NCBI GenBank assembly: GCA_958510825.1
Contig: OY294047.1
Coordinates: 42,244,006-42,308,005, forward strand
Direction: 5' to 3'
Length of the DNA: 64,000 bases
DNA from: Brachypterus glaber
Lineage: Eukaryota; Arthropoda; Insecta; Coleoptera; Kateretidae
Shown here: positions 18,612 to 58,580 of the stretch, one piece after another
Layout of the letters: the number at the start of each line of letters is the position of its first letter
How positions within the stretch are numbered: the first letter of the stretch is position 1
Made by a program: the position numbers and the translations under genes
The notes under the pieces: generated by a model
Told to the model about the DNA's origin: nothing
The model's database searches: none
The model's input: only the letters and a program-made list of their open reading frames with translations

Positions 18612-19386
18612 TTAGTGCAGTCAAATAACGAGAAATTCCTATGTTAAATTGCAATAAATGTACACGGACTGATATTTTAAAGGGTAGTATACTAACCATC
18701 ACTATAGTGAATAGTAACAGAACACTTCTGTGATTTGCGTAAGGAGTGTCTGCTATTTTAAATTTTAGGGGTGAGTGCGGTTATAAATATGCATCTTATA
18801 ATAAAAATATAACCAAATTTACTAAGGAGAAAATTTCCAACAATGTTTGTTTAGATCATTTGTTCAATATATCAATAACAATCGAGTTATAAATATTCAA
18901 AAATGGCCATGTTGGGGGTGAAATTGTTTTTTTTTTTTGGATATTTTAGCCAAATTATTCATCGAAGGATGAGAAGAAAACTTATAGCTCTTGAAATTCT
19001 GTATAAGTTTTTAATATTATGCATTTTCACAAGTATTTTGTTGCGGTTACAGTGGACGCTGAAAGTCGAGTTGCGCCCTGTGTAAATGTGCCAAAATACC
19101 TATGAAAATTATAATATATGAAACCTATAGAGAATTTCAAGAGCTACAAGTTTGCTCATGTTATTAATATATTAAAAAAATGATCCAAACAAAAATTGTT
19201 GGAAATTTCCTCCTTAACAAAATTGGTTATATCATTTTTATCGTAAGATGCATATTAAGCAAGTCACCCCTAAAATTCAAGATAGCGGACACCCCTTAAG
19301 CAAATCACCCGGTGTAAAACTAACAGGAGTTAAAATATCAGCCCGTACATTTATTGCAATTTACTTCTATTATTTGACTGGACTAA
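18612..19386. mobile_element. Palindromic element, about 775 bp
   Basis: Left end ttagtgcagtcaaataa and right end ttatttgactggactaa are inverted. Further in, gcaataaatgtac and attttaggggtgag-type segments pair with their complements. Arms are more than 200 bp. A further partial arm piece (ctcccctaaaattcaagatc) follows at 19410-19440. No transposase. Confidence 0.85.
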
Positions 19387-19774
19387 TGCATATTTAGCGA
19401 GATAACCGCACTCTCCCCTAAAATTCAAGATCGCGGACTAATGATGAATTTATATTAAAGATTGCTTAAATTATTTTGAAGTACGCAAGAATGTTTATCA
19501 CCGAATGCACCTGCAATAACGCACTTCAAAATCTCGATAAAACTGCACATAATTCATTTTTTTTATTGGTGTTTGGTGAGTCGGAAAAAGTTACAATGTT
19601 CGAGTACAGAAGAGATCGATCAAACTGGAAGGATGAAAGATTTCATATCGGTAATTTATCATTTGCCCGTAAGTTATGTTTAAAATAATACTTATACGAG
19701 AAAAAGGCTACATGAACATATTTTTAACAGTTTTTGTAAAGATAACCCATCAATCTATTGTCTAATCATTGTAA

Positions 19775-19839
19775 AGAGTGATATTGGTAGACTGACAGTT
19801 TCGGGCTGCTGGCCCTCTTCAGTACCAAGAATCAACTCT
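19775..19839 (-). ncRNA. Type-I hammerhead ribozyme, solitary copy, intact core
   Basis: Read on the minus strand, stem I is UUGGUA/UACCAA, extended after an internal loop by AGAGU/ACUCU. The conserved CUGAAGA (19822-19816) fits CUGANGA. Stem II is GGGC/GCCC around CAGCA, followed by GAAA. Stem III is ACU/AGU with a 3-nt GUC loop. The residue 5' of the cleavage point is C17 in GUC, complementary to position 19790. Every invariant core position of the hammerhead family is present. Short stem III type-I hammerheads are known from Penelope-like elements and animal retrozymes. Activity is inferred, not shown. Confidence 0.88.
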
Positions 19840-19849
19840 GCACGCTGAT

Positions 19850-20604
19850 TAATAAAACGTTATAATAGCTATTGATTAAATTCAATTAATTTAAATTAGG
19901 CAAAGTATAGGAAGTTTTATGGTGTTACTTTTTAATAAAAAAAAGTTAGTCAAAAATGAGCCCGGAAACTAATATTTTTAGAGAAGCACAGACCAACTAA
20001 TGTTTTTCAGTTGAAAACTTTTAAATAAAAAAAAAATGTTTCAAAAACATAAAATGATAAATTTAAAACCCACACCTCATATAATTTATTCTTCACAGAA
20101 TATAACATCCTCGTCTAGGTAGGTACAAATATTTAGGTATAAAATTACCACCATCATTAATAAACACTAATTTGCGGACATCGTTATTGTTGTCATTCAT
20201 TTCGGCATGACAAACCAAGAAATGGCGAGAATGGATTTTTAATAAAACGCTCGCACGTCCGTAAATAACATCATAGTATGGGTGGTAAACGATGACAACC
20301 CATTGCAACATGGTAAATCTTGTACAAGATTAAGGACTGCAAATAGACGTATGGGTTGTAACATTGAAACTTTTTCAACATTTCTTAAATATGTATTGTT
20401 GTTGTTGCCAGTGACGTACCTATAAATTATTCCAAACGAGTAAACTAGTCGTAAATACTTTTCTTTACGAGATATTGGATAAGCATACCTTAACATAGGA
20501 TTGAAAATATGGAATTTAGGAAAGTTTTATCCCCGAATTCTATTTTTGCACAAAGATAAAACTGGTGGTTCTTATTTTGAAAAGATTTCGATACAAATCC
20601 AAGT
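19850..20604. other. Spacer between hammerhead copies
   Basis: Two overlapping minus-strand frames (20093-20311 and 20239-20496) have no recognisable domain. The stretch might hold a degraded part of an autonomous relative of the retrozyme, but I see no RT or GIY-YIG motif. Confidence 0.3.
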
Positions 20605-20697
20605 AATAAGTAATCCAGGACAGAAATTTTTAATTTTAAACAAAATTATAAAACTATTAATTTATTATTTCATCAATCTATTTTCTAATCATTGTAA

Positions 20698-20760
20698 AGA
20701 GTGATATTGGTAGACTGACAGTTTCAGGCTGCTGGCCCTGCTCAGTACCAAGTCAACTCT
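20698..20760 (-). ncRNA. Hammerhead ribozyme, copy 2, core mutated
   Basis: Same stems as the 19775 copy: stem I UUGGUA/UACCAA and AGAGU/ACUCU, and stem III ACU/AGU. The core reads CUGAGCA instead of CUGANGA: the invariant G8 is C (plus-strand position 20740 is g). Stem II also has one G-U pair. G8 is the general acid and pairs with C3 in the known structure, so this copy is expected to be inactive. Confidence 0.82.
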
Positions 20761-21038
20761 GCACGCTGATTAAAAAATTGTTTTTAGACTTTATTCGCAA
20801 AAGGAATATAGTCATTAGATTGATGTAGTCTTGTGCTCCATCTTTTGCTAGATGTAGACAACTACTCATACCTCTCCTAGTCTGGAGACTTTGAATGGTA
20901 GCAAGTTGAAGACTTGTCTGTCACGAGCACATAGTATCACTAAAGTGTGGTTAGACGTAGAATTTAATATTTAATTTTAAACAAAATTATAAAAATATTA
21001 ATTTATTATTCCATCAATCTATTTTCTAATGATCGTAA

Positions 21039-21103
21039 AGAGTGATATTGGTAGACTGACAGTTTCGGGCTGGTGGCCCTCTTCAGTACCAAGAGTCAAC
21101 TCT
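21039..21103 (-). ncRNA. Hammerhead ribozyme, copy 3, intact core
   Basis: Minus strand: CUGAAGA, stem II GGGC-CACCA-GCCC, GAAA, stem III ACU/AGU and a GUC cleavage triplet, with stem I UUGGUA/UACCAA and AGAGU/ACUCU. The internal loop in stem I (UGACUC against UAUC) is where loop-loop contacts are made in natural type-I hammerheads. Copy 3 lies exactly 341 bp from copy 2. Confidence 0.88.
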
Positions 21104-21202
21104 GCACGCTGATTAAGAAAACGTTTTTAGTCTTTGTCAGTCTACCAATATCACTCTGTACGATGATTAGAAAAGAGATTGATGGAATAATAAGTAATCC
21201 AG

Positions 21203-24090
21203 ATTGTTTGTCCAAACCTAAAACTTTGTTCCAATATTTACTTCCAAAGTAAGTCAATGTACAGAGCTTTGGATATTAAATGATAATATGGACTTAAGAA
21301 GAAAGGCATTTGAATACGTCGACCACTACTGAAACTAGAAAATTGCAATTAGGAATGTAATCATCAGGATACGTATTCTTTTCCTGTATTAATTTTCAAT
21401 GATTTAACTCACAATGAGAAAAAAACTAACATATACTCTTTTCAAGCTAAGCTGTTAAATAAATCTAACCTTTTTACAGACGAGAAGAAGCGGAAACGTA
21501 TCCTTGTCTCGCGACATTCTTGTTAACCAGGTATCTAATTCTTGCCGCCTTACAAATAATAATTACTATACGCTATAGCGAATTATAGAAGAAATGCACA
21601 TAAATATTAAGTTAATTTATTACTTAACTATGAAGGCGACTTAACAAATTACCTCTACTTCTATTTTCTAAGAATACACGTACCTAACTTACAATGACAT
21701 TTAATGTACTTGACTAAAGGTATTTAAATTATATACTTGTAGCTAATTTAACATCTAAATCATTATATTTATTGAATAATATTTAATTTATTTAAGATAT
21801 TAAATAAATGGTCTATTATTTTTTAAGAATAGAGAAAATTAATGTCATCCATATTGTATAAAATAGAATATGTAAAGAATCAGTAATGATACCTCCCAAA
21901 TTCCGATTTTATTAAATTTTCAGATCATCTCATGTGAGTTTTTAATGTCACGATTATTAAATTAAAGATTAATGGCGTCATATCCAATCTGTTTTGACTA
22001 CGAATATTGGGCCTTAAATTATAACTAAAAGAACCTCTTGAAATGTAATTTTCAGGGAACTAGTCAATTTTTAGGATGTCGACAGGCAAATTAGAGAGCT
22101 ATAAAAACATATAATTAGAAATATAAATCTAGGTATTCATATTATTTACTGAAAACAAAAAAAAATCATAAAACATATGAAAAGGATATAAACCTGTCAA
22201 AATAAATGGCCAGGACCTTTATATTCTTTTAATATTTGAGGCGGATTGTATTTGTTATAGGTATGTAATATCAAGAGGTTAATGTCCCTTAAGAAATGCA
22301 TGTTTTACTGACATTTATAGTATAGCCATGATTAACCTTAAGAGCCTCAAGTTAAGGCTCAAAAACAGTTGAATAATGGTAGGTGAGAACTTGGCCTTCC
22401 TAGCTTTCTTCCAATTTTCTATTCCGTTCACGAATATCTTTATTTAATAATAATAATTATTTTTATTGGCAATAAAAATTAAACACACGCATGCGAATGT
22501 TTATTCAAAAATATCTTGTCATTCGAAAATAGTGAAACTCTCGTAATTTCGTTTTCATTTGATTTTTCAGCGTAGGTTTGCCTATTCTTGTATGCCGAAC
22601 TCTCGATTTTCATTTACAATGTGAACAAATAGTTTCTTGTTGTTTAATTAATCTTAAGGAGGTTAATTAACTTAAGCATACGTTAGCAGTATGTTAAATC
22701 AAATGTTTTTTTCGCAGAACAATCACTTGTTATTTAAAAATGCCAAATTATGTTCCGCAGAAAACAGTGGCGTAAACTAAAGAAAGACATACAATACACG
22801 CGTCCCAAGTAAACTAAAATATTAGAGGGAAAGAGAGGGACTTTAGGTTCAGTCCGATTTGATACTTTTTTAAATGTTTGTTTACCGCTTGAGTTATGGT
22901 AGAAATTCGTAAATTTTAGTGTTAGGGGTAACTTTTGCAGATTTTAGGCACGGGTTAGAATCATCTGATCATTTTAAAATTTGGCAAATAATTTTGTATG
23001 CTCAAGAGGAAAAAAATAGATTTCAAGCCCTTTGAATTTTTCACTTATATAAAAATTATATACAATTTTCAACGATTTTTTACGATTTATGGGAACTTTA
23101 CGAATTTTAGGGGTGCAATTAGGATCCTTAGAGAAGTTTGATCACTCTCATATTTTCATAATTTTCTAGTAATACATAAATGAAAATTTTAAGATAATAA
23201 AAAATATAAGGTCCACCCTAATATCATATATTTTAAGTTTGATAAGAAAATATTGTTTTAGATTCTTAATAAAAAATATTTCAGAAGTAAACTTTGCCGT
23301 ATTAGTATCCAACTATGCAAAATTTCAAATTCTATGATGATCATCTATGATGGTGGTCCATTTTTTTAGTTTAATGTACACTACCTACGTAGCGTTAATT
23401 GCATTACTTTAAATCTATGGTATATTTAAATTAACTGTATCATTACGATGCAGTTTTTGATTCAATTGATATATACCGCATCACAACGGAACGTACAGGA
23501 TCCCTTTGTTATAATACTAGTTTCTGATACAGAACGGTTTATTTTAAATAACTATTTTTCATTCATATTAAAATAGTATTTATTATTAAAAATGAAGGTA
23601 ATATAAAATATAATATATGCTATATTTTAGGGTTCTTCTTCTTCTTCCTTTATTTTGGCCTTTTCTCAGTGAGATAATTAGCCAGATCCCTCTTAGTTAC
23701 TCAATTCACCAAGAGTGGTTCTTGTCTGGCCTTTTACCATGCCCACTCCTGTTTTAATTATATAAAATTTCCAGTCTTCTGTAAGACCTTTTCTTTTTCC
23801 TTCTTTCCTTTTCGTGTTTACTGTTGGTTGCGTTAGCTGTTGCCAAGGCAGTTTTTTCTAATTTGTAATTATATTTGCGCATGCGCTAGTATATAAAAAA
23901 TTTTGTACGTATAAAAACTTATTCACGTGCTAGTTGCTTCCAAATCAAAATTTATCAGCATTATAAATGATTAAAAAACATAAAATTCCCTTCTTACTCC
24001 AATATAATCACATGTTCGTCATTTTACTGTACATCTTCCATACAATCACTATAAAAGATCTAAAATCGATTCTGGGGCATATCTAAGATA
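21203..24090. other. Long AT-rich stretch with little structure
   Basis: No ORF of note. At 22900-23200 two loosely similar segments (gaattttaggggtg-type) suggest an old repeat. At 23636-23760 a ttcttcttcttcc tract followed by ttggccttttctcagtgag, read on the minus strand, resembles a non-LTR 3' end with a GAA tail. Neither can be taken further. Confidence 0.35.
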
Positions 24091-27922: not shown

Positions 27923-28438
27923 TCCATTCAGATAAATGGCCAACCCATTAACTGGGAAAACCATGCCAAATACCTCGGCATTACAATCTCCAAAAACTTG
28001 ACGTGGGATCAGCACGTCAAAAACACCCTCCAAATAGCAAATTGCCGCCTCTCCAAACTCTACCCCTTAATAGGCAGAAAGAGTCCCCTATCCATTAAAA
28101 ACAAACTTCTTCTCTACAACCAAACCCTAAAGCCGGTACTTCTTTACGGAGCCCCAGCCTGGAATAAAATCACCCTTAACAAAGCGCTCTCAGCAAAACT
28201 TCAGGCCTTCCAAAACAAGGCACTCAGAATATGCCTCGATGCCCCCTGGTTCATGAGGAACAACCAGATACACAGAGATCTCGAAATGCCCCTCCTAAAA
28301 ACGGAAATCATCCGCTACAGCACGTCTTTTATACAAGACAATCTAGACCACCCAAACCCCCTCATTTCAAACTTTCTAGATTACGATCATGAAATACACA
28401 ACACTCACAAAAAGATCAAAAACGTCCTCAACCAGTAA
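27923..28438 (+). pseudogene. Jockey-type non-LTR RT C-terminal fragment
   Basis: Open from 27923, just after an in-frame TGA, to a stop at 28438. Visible motifs are NHAKYLGITISKNLTWDQHV, the segment after the RT catalytic domain in Jockey-type elements. Then come LYNQTLKPVLLYGAPAWN, KLQAFQNKALRICLDAPWF and RNNQIHRDLEMPLLK. Codon use is GC-rich against an AT-rich background, which suggests a younger insertion than the other RT remnants here. Catalytic FADD and upstream domains are missing, so it is 5'-truncated. The 3' part is duplicated in tandem. Confidence 0.85.
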
Positions 28439-28965
28439 TGGTACCCACTAATACAGGACAGATGCATTCCCAGCATCAGTGAGATAGTCTCACTCCTCCC
28501 GCACATCCCTCCCCTCCCTATCCCATCCCTCCCCATCTTCTCTACAACCAAACCCTAAAGCCGGTACTTCTTTACGGAGCCCCAGCCTGGAATAAAATCA
28601 CCCTTAACAAAGCGCTCTCAGCAAAACTTCAGGCCTTCCAAAACAAGGCACTCAGAATATGCCTCGATGCCCCCTGGTTCATGAGGAACAACCAGATACA
28701 CAGAGATCTCGAAATGCCCCTCCTAAAAACGGAAATCATCCGCTACAGCACGTCTTTTATACAAGACAATCTAGACCACCCAAACCCCCTCATTTCAAAC
28801 TTTCTAGATTACGATCATGAAATACACAACACTCACAAAAAGATCAAAAACGTCCTCAACCAGTAATGGTACCCACTAATACAGGACAGATGCATTCCCA
28901 GCATCAGTGAGATAGTCTCACTCCTCCCGCACATCCCTCCCCTCCCTATCCCATCCCTCCCCATC
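28108..28965 (+). repeat. 428-bp exact tandem duplication inside the RT fragment
   Basis: Bases 28108-28537 recur at 28536-28965 with offset 428, and I see no mismatch. The repeat unit covers the last 110 or so codons plus the start of the 3' UTR. The second copy (frame 28681-28866) therefore repeats the protein C-terminus. The junction has a 2-nt overlap (tc). It is either a very recent duplication or an assembly artefact. Confidence 0.9.
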
Positions 28966-33269: not shown

Positions 33270-33611
33270 TTTAAAATATTACCCAAACCAAAAAACCGTT
33301 ACACTGTCTCAGTTTGTCAACGATTAAGGTTGCTTTATTGGTTGTTGCTTTGTTTAGTTCGTTTTCCTTATTTTAATTTTTGGTCGGCTTAAGAGTTTTA
33401 GTAGTTCCAAACCAGTCAACGACCAAAACAGATGAAAACCAATTTAGCAACAACCGATCAAGTGACCATAACAATGATGATATTACGGATCAGATCAGTC
33501 GAAGGCCTTGTATAGATCTTAGGCATAGACCATTCCATTCAATTATGTATAATTTATAAATTAAAATTAATTTGACTTTTTATATATAAATTTTAAAATT
33601 AAAAAATATAT

Positions 33612-34350
33612 AAACTAAATTAAATTGTTTGATATTTACAAATTTAAAAAATCTATATAAAATATTTTACTATTCCTTAAAACGACTTTTGTTTGATTAA
33701 CGCAGTCGTCCCTCCGAAGTGACTGATCGATTTCGTCCTTTTTAGCACTCTTCAGAGCTACATATAGGTAGTAAGGACAACTACGAAAATCAAATCCTTT
33801 CCATATATCTCTATATGGAGTTTAAAAATCGTTGTAAGGAATAGTAAAAACAGCTAGCGACATCTACTGCTCAAAGCAAAGACTGGATAAACCTATCGAC
33901 AGTCCAAAAAAGGAAGTAGTTATTGGTTTCAAGAACCTATTGCACACTGTCGATAGGGGGCAGCTTAATCAATGCCACGGTGGACATTGTCGCCAATTGA
34001 ATCCTAAACGCTAGGAGGGTACCTTTTACAGTGGTATCTGAATTAATAAACTAAATTAAATTGTTTGATATTTACAAATTTAAAAAATCTATATAAAATA
34101 TTTTACTATTCCTTAAAACGACTTTTGTTTGATTAACGCAGTTAATCAAACTTTTTACAACGATTTTTAAACTCCATATAGAGATATATGGAAAGGATTT
34201 GATTTTCGTAGTTGTCCTTACTACCGATATGTGGCTCTGAAGAGTGCTAAAAAGCACGAAATCGATCAGTCACTTCGGAGGGACGACTGAGTTAATCAAA
34301 CAAAAGTCGTTTTAAGGAATAGTAAAATATTTTATATAGATTTTTTAAAA
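33612..34350. mobile_element. Compound fold-back element with a direct arm repeat
   Basis: A 96-bp segment (33612-33707) recurs directly at 34048-34143 (offset 436). The stretch 33640-33850 is inverted at about 34150-34350, and both contain tccatatagagatatatgg-type pieces. The centre (33854-34047) is less AT-rich and contains cctatcgacag/ctgtcgatagg inverted pieces. The layout suggests one element with a second partial insertion or a template-switch duplication. Confidence 0.8.
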
Positions 34351-34778
34351 AATATATATATTTAATATTGACAATACTGGCAATATCTTTTAATTGATAA
34401 TTTTGAAAGACGTAAGTGTATTATTTTAATAGCCTAAGGTGGTACTTTGAGCTAGTCCGGTCCCGAGTTTACCCTTACTCTTAATATTAAAAAGTATCTT
34501 TCGGCATTGTCAAACGGTATCTAGAAGGCGTATAAATACATAATTTATTATTTTTTAACCCTATTAAACATGTTTTGTTTTATCTACACTTTTATACGGG
34601 ATCACAATAGGAACTTCTTTTATTGTACACCAGTAGCTATAATTAATTTTCTGAATACCTTGTCATGATATTATCTCGGTGAGCAGGTACGTTTTTATTA
34701 AATACTCCAGAGGTGGATATTAATTCTAACAATTTATGTATTTTACTTTTAAAACACCTTTAGTCAGAAGAAAGTATA
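34351..34778. other. AT-rich spacer, nothing identified
   Basis: No supported feature was seen. Confidence 0.35.
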
Positions 34779-46744: not shown

Positions 46745-47277
46745 TATCTCAGTAACGGTTTAACTTATTAACATGAAATTTTTACTATAAAACCAATAAA
46801 TGTAATCATTTAACTCTTTATTAAAATTAAGTTTTTGACCAGGGGCGTAGATACTGAGTGCAAATGGGAGGCATAGCGTAGTGGCTAGCGCGTATGCATA
46901 GCAAGTCTACTATCGTGAGTTCGATTCTCACTGGCGCCGATTTGCCTTTTTCAGTTAATTAATAATTGAAATTTGGCGAAGGCGATAAGTGAAACGGACA
47001 CTCCCTAGAAACTGGTTCGAAAGTCAGTATAAGCCGGTGGTTCCCTCTACTACTAGCCCACACAAGTCCTGGACTTAGGGGATGCTTAATTAAGTAGAAT
47101 AGTACGAGGTTAAACAAACATGTAATGTAACAAACATGTAATGTAATGTAAATAATTTATATGTAAAACTGTAAGTCCGCCCCTGGTTAAATATTTTATG
47201 TCATAAAATGATAATGTTTATTGGTTGCATACAACAGTAAAAATTTCAAGTCAATAAGTTAAACCGTTCCTGCGTTA
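46745..47277. mobile_element. Palindromic element interrupted by a SINE
   Basis: Left arm 46745-46856 (agtaacggtttaacttatta... to gaccaggggcg) and right arm 47164-47277 (cgcccctggttaaat... to gttaaaccgttcctgcg) are inverted over about 110 bp. The 300 bp between them are a tRNA-derived SINE and do not belong to the fold-back. Confidence 0.8.
46868..47163 (+). mobile_element. tRNA-derived SINE
   Basis: The head (46868-46938) is tRNA-like, with A box tagcgtagtgg (46874-46884) and B box agttcgattct (46918-46928) at normal spacing. An anticodon-loop-like atagcaa with AGC in the anticodon position hints at an alanine-type ancestor. Acceptor pairing is poor, so it is not a functional tRNA gene. The body contains gcgaaggcgataagtgaaac and ccctctactactagccca. 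It ends in a duplicated aaacatgtaatgt tail (about 47113-47152). Pol III transcription and mobilisation by a non-LTR RT are inferred from the class. Confidence 0.8.
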
Positions 47278-52524: not shown

Positions 52525-53340
52525 GCTGCTTATAAACGATTCGCTCCCCGCAGTAATGAGAAGAATCTGCCACATGCGCACTGGTTTGCTTATTTTTGTT
52601 TTGACGGATGTCAAAAGTGGCTTCCATTTAGGCAGTTGTGGTTTTATGAAATAGTTTAATTTGAGTGGGTTTACGGTGCGCATCAGGTCCAAAAAAATGA
52701 ACTATATTTTTGCACTGATTTCTGGTTTTATTACTAAAACTTACTGTCTTGAATATATTTAGGTGCGGAAAATCCAGTTTTTTTGTTAGAATATATAGCA
52801 AAAGATTGTTAAAATACTCACGAATTTCTGTTTGATTTTTTTAATGGGGGCGTTGGTTTACGTTAACAATGGTTTGGTTTGGTATTTTGCTGGTTTGGTG
52901 TTTTTTTTAATGGGAGGCGTTGGTTTACGTTAACAATGGTTTGGTTTGGTAGTTTGCTGGTTTGGTGTTTTTTTTTAATGGGAGGCGTTAGTTTACGTTA
53001 ATAATGGTTTGATTTGGTAGTTTGCTGGTTTGGTGTTTTTTTTAATGGGAGGAATTTTTCAGATACGATATTTCAGAATTTAGAAGGCGCTATATTTTAA
53101 GAATCAAATGTTTATTAATGAATATTTCGCAATTTTTTTACGAAAATACTATTAAAAGCGATTACTTTTAGCCAATTAAAAAAAAACTGTTAGCTCGCAA
53201 AGAAAAAAGTAGATAGTTTTGTAAAATTCTGCAAAAGAATGTTACATAATCTTAAAATAATTTTTGGCATACGTCAAAACAAAAATAAGAAAATCAGTGC
53301 CCTGGATTCTTCTCATTACTGAACTGTGCTTATAAGAATC
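52525..53340. mobile_element. Fold-back element with central minisatellite
   Basis: The left arm (52525-52615, with agtaatgagaagaatctg and ttatttttgttttgacg) is inverted at about 53262-53340 (cgtcaaaacaaaaataag and ggattcttctcattact). A 67-bp tandem array lies in the middle. The minus-strand frame at 52399-52692 overlaps the left arm and has no known domain. Confidence 0.7.
52843..53052 (+). repeat. Minisatellite, about three units of 66-68 bp
   Basis: Units start at 52843, 52909 and 52977 and end at an incomplete fourth at 53044. Each holds aatgggaggcgttggtttac, aatggtttggtttggta and a T run. Unit-to-unit identity is high. Confidence 0.9.
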
Positions 53341-58277: not shown

Positions 58278-58580
58278 ATATTATTTCAACCATTTAAACT
58301 AAATAATTATAAAACTGTTTTTAAGTCTATAATAGAATACGTTGAACAAAATAAATTATTATCTGTGTATCAATATGGATTTAGAAATGGAAGGTCCACA
58401 GAAACTGCATCCTGTCAGTTACTTAATTTTGCTTATTCTGAACTCGATTTAAATAAATTTGTTGTATGTGTTAAAGTCGACCTTATAAAAGCTTTTGAAA
58501 CCGTACGTCCAGATTTCCTTAAAGCAAAAGTTGATAATTTTAAAATTCCAGATAATATTTCTAGGGGGTTATATATGTAG
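58278..58580 (+). pseudogene. Non-LTR reverse transcriptase fragment (fingers/palm start)
   Basis: The frame is open from 58278 to a stop at 58578-58580. It contains KSIIEYVEQNKLLSVYQYGF, then RNGRSTETASCQLL, the conserved QFGFRKGRST-type block. FVVCVKVDLIKAFETV follows and corresponds to RT motif A with its catalytic Asp. It is cut off before motif B and the YADD box, so it is non-functional. The clade is probably CR1/Jockey-like. A related endonuclease remnant lies 1 kb downstream in the opposite orientation. Confidence 0.8.

Follow-up and report, generated by a model that had tools for sequence, protein, structure and literature searches.

An old copy of a hammerhead retrozyme in the Brachypterus glaber genome, from a family with signs of Penelope-like insertion

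The feature described here lies in a 64,000-nucleotide stretch of the Brachypterus glaber genome (the window; G000:C10:42244006-42308005 of a 648-Mb assembly) and represents an old insertion of a mobile element that is short and non-coding and whose RNA includes a self-cutting ribozyme. It is likely a non-autonomous retrozyme of the metazoan, non-LTR type that was inserted in the manner of Penelope-like elements, with the two target strands priming reverse transcription at two sites on the RNA. Our confidence in this explanation is slightly lowered by one locus of the family (L010) and by a bias in the sample of loci. Judged by its sequence features, the retrozyme family represented by this copy belongs to a known metazoan kind and bears clear genomic signs of Penelope-like insertion.

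The sense strand of the element is the minus strand of the window. Read in sense, an inverted arm (21193-21135) is followed by a repeat (21135-20966), a body (20965-20793), another repeat (20792-20625), six further bases and the flank. The two direct repeats are 93% identical where compared (20625-20752 versus 20966-21093) and are spaced by exactly 341 bp, the predicted cut sites of their hammerheads likewise being 341 nt apart. The 5' repeat of the direct arm (20966-21135, minus strand) carries an intact type I hammerhead with a full core at 21048-21092, predicted to cut after position 21054 in sense, whereas the hammerhead of the 3' repeat (20625-20792, minus strand; hammerhead 20707-20751) is damaged by a G8->C substitution. 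Thus, the spacing given in the initial annotation is exact, whereas only one of its two hammerhead repeats holds an intact ribozyme; the 341 bp that it took for the monomer is a shortened version of the 354 bp usual in the family. Because G8C is reported to abolish cleavage in other hammerheads (PMC11167929), probably only one of the two ribozymes of the window copy works. The body between the repeats (20793-20965, minus strand) is non-coding, as had been claimed, with no open stretch longer than 42 codons. The partial inverted repeat noted at one end was also confirmed: the inverted arm (21135-21193, plus strand) is 95% complementary to 21003-21061. Its outer end lies about 45-51 nt past the ribozyme cut, and that of the direct arm about 94-96 nt past the cut, the six bases before the flank (20619-20624) being similar to the start of the body. 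The element is bounded by the target site duplication TAATAAGTAATCCAG, present as identical copies at 20604-20618 and 21188-21202, although up to the first 6 nt of the latter might belong to the element end; the 14-bp duplication proposed initially is therefore real and extends to 15 bp. The 300-bp flanks have no match other than themselves within the window, and the flanking 14-mer does not belong to any larger duplicated segment there.

In outline the initial annotation holds, although the copy it describes is decayed. The window copy is about 8% diverged from the usual family sequence and, as a linear RNA, folds better than shuffled sequences (z -4.4). Beyond what had been annotated, the same window contains a solo fragment of the same family (19747-19861, minus strand) with an intact hammerhead core (19784-19828), for which a clear target duplication was looked for and none was found, and a second retrozyme at about 33605-34349.

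A strict hammerhead descriptor produced three matches in the window (at 21048, 19784 and 34231), compared with no match when 300 first-order Markov sequences were scanned; the core at 20707-20751, which reads CTGAGCA, was matched only when one mismatch was allowed. Rfam did not report a hammerhead over the whole window at the gathering threshold or over positions 19300-21700 at E<=10, and because of this the hammerhead call is based on the descriptor together with the conservation seen across family members, the core being kept in 150 of the 161 family ribozyme copies that are at most 8 substitutions away from the reference. Helix I of the element hammerhead comprises a distal stem and an internal loop in the predicted folds. 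Exact ribozyme patterns gave no matches in the viral_contigs and genome_contigs databases. The sole Rfam match over the gathering threshold in the window is to a tRNA (46867-46939, 40.7 bits), either a gene or derived from a repeat.

The element is not single-copy: used as a query against the same 648-Mb genome, it produced at least 256 matches, a lower bound given that 40 of the 2347 candidates were scored. We fetched 35 loci which, with the window copy, make up a set of 36. The fetched loci are for the most part arrays of the 354-bp monomer, tandem copies of the kind that the initial annotation had envisaged; the spacing from ribozyme to ribozyme is 354 bp in 93 of 109 monomers, and the GC content, calculated for one monomer of L018, is 35.6%. 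Treated as a circle, the L018 monomer folds better than shuffled sequences (z -4.5). The mean number of differences is 2.8 for 369 pairs of monomers from the same array and 7.0 for 5517 pairs from different arrays, and at seven sites with a frequent variant the arrays are mostly uniform, with exceptions that include L030, L015, L033 and L022. In L018 (G000:C2:9910600-9915600), nine monomers follow the strict order ABABABABA, with 2 differences at lag 1 and 0 at lag 2, and the array in L017 has the order ABA. A dimeric circle or crossing-over could each produce the order seen in L018. The array in L022 (G000:C1:80390000-80399500), at least 8.8 kb long and running beyond the fetched stretch, is a mixture of many monomer variants without any simple order, which counts against a single pass round a single circle at this locus. 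Such a mixture would be expected if the arrays were ordinary satellite DNA produced by unequal crossing-over, with hammerheads that have no present use, and the ABAB array, too, could have arisen by duplication of a dimer. However, the short arrays have locus-specific target duplications and fixed outer ends, which are marks of insertion, and we consider the satellite origin highly improbable. Arms longer than one monomer call for a template that is circular or multimeric.

The dispersed insertions of this family are accompanied by locus-specific target duplications of about 12 bp. Flank strings of 11-15 bp are common to both sides in 22 of the 31 loci with both flanks available (exactly 12 bp in 12 of these); two of the remaining loci share 9 bp and seven share less. 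By comparison, none of the 930 mismatched pairings of flanks from different loci reaches 10 bp, a control that covers the first family. The target duplications thus vary from copy to copy, as the initial annotation would have it. In 32 of the 36 loci, an inverted arm of 39-452 nt stands head to head with the direct arm; none was seen in L010, L018, L020 and L022. The overlap between the two arms, judged by eye and with no control for chance, is 1-6 nt in 19 of the 32 loci, longer in 2 and absent in 11.

The outer ends of the arms, with positions counted from the ribozyme cut and adjusted by the duplication where one is present, are found at 49-57 or 87-102, except in L014 (71) and L009 (80). 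Not only do the ends fall into two classes, but they are also paired: in 26 of 27 usable insertions, one outer end is located about 97 nt and the other about 52 nt past the cut (Fisher p 2e-5). The inverted arm is short and the direct arm long in 20 of these 27 loci, the reverse holds in 6, one locus has two short ends, and none has two long ones. This count leaves out L009 (for its end at 80), the four loci without an inverted arm (L010, L018, L020 and L022, the last also cut at the left edge) and L015, L030, L032 and L033, which are cut by the fetched stretch; L014 (raw value 71) falls just within the class limit, set at 72. Because the query itself has one short and one long end, the sample of loci is biased toward this type, but the 6 reversed loci and the complete lack of long/long loci argue against the bias as the sole cause of the pairing. 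There is little indication that direct arms end at the ribozyme cut, inner ends within 5 nt of it being observed in 1 of 34 loci (1.06 expected) with L010 and L022 left out, and in 2 of 35 when L010 is included. In L010, which has no inverted arm, the starts of two segments, at positions 3 and 1, are those expected if a linear RNA cut by the ribozyme had been copied, and this locus counts against the explanation that we favor.

The second, different hammerhead retrozyme of the window (at about 33599-34358) has a direct arm on the minus strand, composed of a 3' repeat (33613-33837) that includes a hammerhead with a weakened helix II and ends about 112-120 nt past the cut, a body (33838-34040) and a partial 5' repeat without a hammerhead (34041-34142). 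The inverted arm (34155-34344, plus strand) contains a hammerhead at 34231-34273 and ends about 77-82 nt past the cut, and a flank string is shared between 33599-33612 and 34345-34358. Helix III in this retrozyme is a palindrome, AUCGAU. Sequence similarity between the two families is slight, at best 74% over 67 nt. In the genome, the second family yielded at least 281 matches (40 of 1304 candidates scored), and its monomer, measured in L084, is 436 bp long. Sequence was available for 11 second-family loci (L076-L086, where L076 is the window copy); in 10 of these an end at 69-88 is paired with one at 114-125, whereas both ends of L083 are short. L084-L086 had been chosen because they were listed as fitting, and without them the rule holds in 7 of 8 loci. 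A flank string of at least 9 bp is common to both sides in 9 of the 11. Among the matches listed, the 15 two-ended clusters of this family comprise 12 of the long/short type, one with two long ends and two left unclassed, with five of the 15 also belonging to the 11 loci above.

The same pairing was detected in a Penelope-like element of this genome. A genome search for GIY-YIG gave 31 matches, and 30 loci were fetched, 29 of which match an open frame of 716 residues in L075 whose protein product combines an RVT_1 with a GIY-YIG domain. In the 18 loci analysed for their ends, copies of the L075 family stop at 50-62 or 88-91 nt beyond the putative cut of a hammerhead-like motif, which differs from the consensus core. 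All five two-armed loci (L046, L063, L064, L065 and L068) have one end of each kind, and their flanks share strings of 12-18 nt, a part of which may belong to the element. One end rule is therefore common, within a single genome, to two retrozymes with little shared sequence and to a Penelope-like element encoding both a reverse transcriptase and GIY-YIG, which lends support to the Penelope-like insertion suggested in the initial annotation. The related Penelope-like element with a shared terminal repeat, which that annotation had also considered, was searched for by comparing the monomer with the 30 GIY-YIG loci, and none was found. Apart from weaker AT-rich matches, this comparison gave one clear match, in L047/L074 (73% over about 80 nt), located in L074 at 1465-1540, about 0.9 kb from a GIY-YIG remnant and within a stretch bounded by inverted repeats. 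L047/L074 was considered as a possible helper carrying a related repeat but was not accepted, its matching segment being opposite in sense to the GIY-YIG remnant. As the search yielded no Penelope-like element that has the retrozyme repeat, it is the end geometry alone that points to the helper.

Pfam analysis of ten window ORFs did not detect GIY-YIG; the one match over the cut-off is a piece of a reverse transcriptase at 58278-58577. In the protein comparisons made, the relatives that carry a species name come from insects. Elsewhere in the window, a reverse-transcriptase-like frame encloses a 428-bp tandem duplication (28108-28965) with two copies that are 100% identical, and a 67-bp tandem repeat (3.2 copies, 95% matches) occupies positions 52836-53052.

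The anatomy of the retrozyme copies is the same as that of full Penelope copies, so that the repeats could be regarded as pseudo-LTRs of a Penelope-like element that captured foreign DNA or lost its ORF, with ribozyme cutting and circles playing no part. Unrelated sequence between pseudo-LTRs flanked by target site duplications has been described in one account (PMC3846280), and ribozyme mutants of the anole element are reported to insert in vitro nonetheless (PMC11167929). Against this derivation, which appears quite improbable, it is the entire 354-bp monomer that amplifies as a unit, with the ribozyme core kept, and the similarity in L047/L074 is the only clear one to the monomer among the 30 GIY-YIG loci.

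Under the preferred explanation of retrozyme RNA inserted by a Penelope-like protein, the family would be transcribed as multimers, the hammerheads would cut these to release monomers, and a host ligase would close the monomers into putative circles. A Penelope-like RT/GIY-YIG protein would then cut the target on both strands, with a stagger of about 12 bp. Of two adjacent RNA sites, one would serve for reverse transcription primed by the first strand and the other for that primed by the second. The two cDNAs would extend toward the 5' end of the RNA, one often beyond the length of a monomer and the other usually less far, and would finally be joined head to head. The anole Penelope-like protein is described as cutting and extending both target strands and as starting reverse transcription at two neighboring internal positions of the RNA, between which lies the 'tail' found in genomic copies (PMC11167929), and a rotifer Penelope element as having direct and inverted repeats, with the tail optional at one inverted repeat (PMC3846280). 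The long/short rule joins the anole start sites with the rotifer repeats, from which we infer that the two target strands use different sites for priming. The retrozyme cycle proposed in the literature, which includes a circular RNA (PMC7229834), is compatible with these copies, their own circle being presumptive. We give roughly even chances to the reading that the copies record two-sided, target-primed reverse transcription from start sites flanking the tail, possibly with several rounds on a dimeric circular RNA in the case of L018. Visual inspection had suggested a stem-loop in the stretch separating the start sites, but it folds at only -1.0 kcal/mol and was dropped.

The inverted arm might instead result from self-priming, with the first cDNA folding back or an antisense template priming itself, and not from the second target strand. 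The authors of the rotifer study favored this route for inverted Penelope copies whose junctions carry palindromes (PMC3846280), and the second retrozyme of the window has the palindrome GTTTGATTAACgcaGTTAATCAAAC near its head-to-head junction. Moreover, in the 24 of 31 inverted arms that are at least 70 nt long, similarity to the direct arm of the same insertion exceeds the median for other loci (Wilcoxon p 0.0005), a result that also favors the preferred explanation; for 6 of these 24 arms, at least one different locus is the better match, which counts against it. However, copying back should stop at the start of the first cDNA and so give two like ends, whereas one long and one short end are found in 26 of 27, 10 of 11 and 5 of 5 loci of the three families, which makes self-priming an unlikely source of the inverted arm.

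Comparison with the metazoan non-LTR retrozymes, as they are characterized in the accessible text of Cervera and de la Pena (2020, PMC7229834), reveals a type I hammerhead with a complete core (one of the two being damaged in the window copy), non-coding tandem monomers (354 bp with GC below 50% here; 150-450 bp and low GC there), dispersed copies with target duplications longer than 4 bp, and coexistence with Penelope-like elements. What differs is the inverted arm, the paired outer ends and the duplications of about 12 bp, which are documented across loci here and which we did not find in the accessible part of that description. With the Penelope elements Pen2a_Av (PMC3846280) and Anolis Poseidon (PMC11167929), as far as these accounts describe them, the retrozyme shares two direct repeats and an adjacent inverted one, an optional tail, a short target site duplication, a hammerhead within the repeat and two adjacent start sites of reverse transcription. 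Unlike Penelope-like elements, it has no RT/GIY-YIG reading frame, its monomer measures a few hundred base pairs, and its hammerhead, rather than being a minimal motif, combines a complete type I core and an extended helix I. The plant LTR retrozymes (Cervera et al. 2016, PMC4918200; PMC7229834; PMC7761336) are likewise presented as non-autonomous and hammerhead-bounded, with a proposed circular RNA intermediate, but are described as having type III hammerheads, 4-bp target site duplications and LTRs with PBS and PPT, in contrast to the type I hammerheads and duplications of mostly 11-15 bp found here.

We did not find the long/short pairing rule stated in the accessible literature, which leaves aside most subscription papers, and it may already be in print. 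Penelope-like elements have been put forward, in the accessible text of the metazoan retrozyme study, only as a strong candidate helper of retrozymes (PMC7229834). That one unusual end rule operates in retrozymes and in a Penelope-like element ties both to one kind of machinery, and thus bears on the identity of the enzymes that mobilize animal retrozymes and on the way in which the inverted repeats and tails of Penelope-like elements are formed. The shared rule yields a simple model that is testable in vitro.
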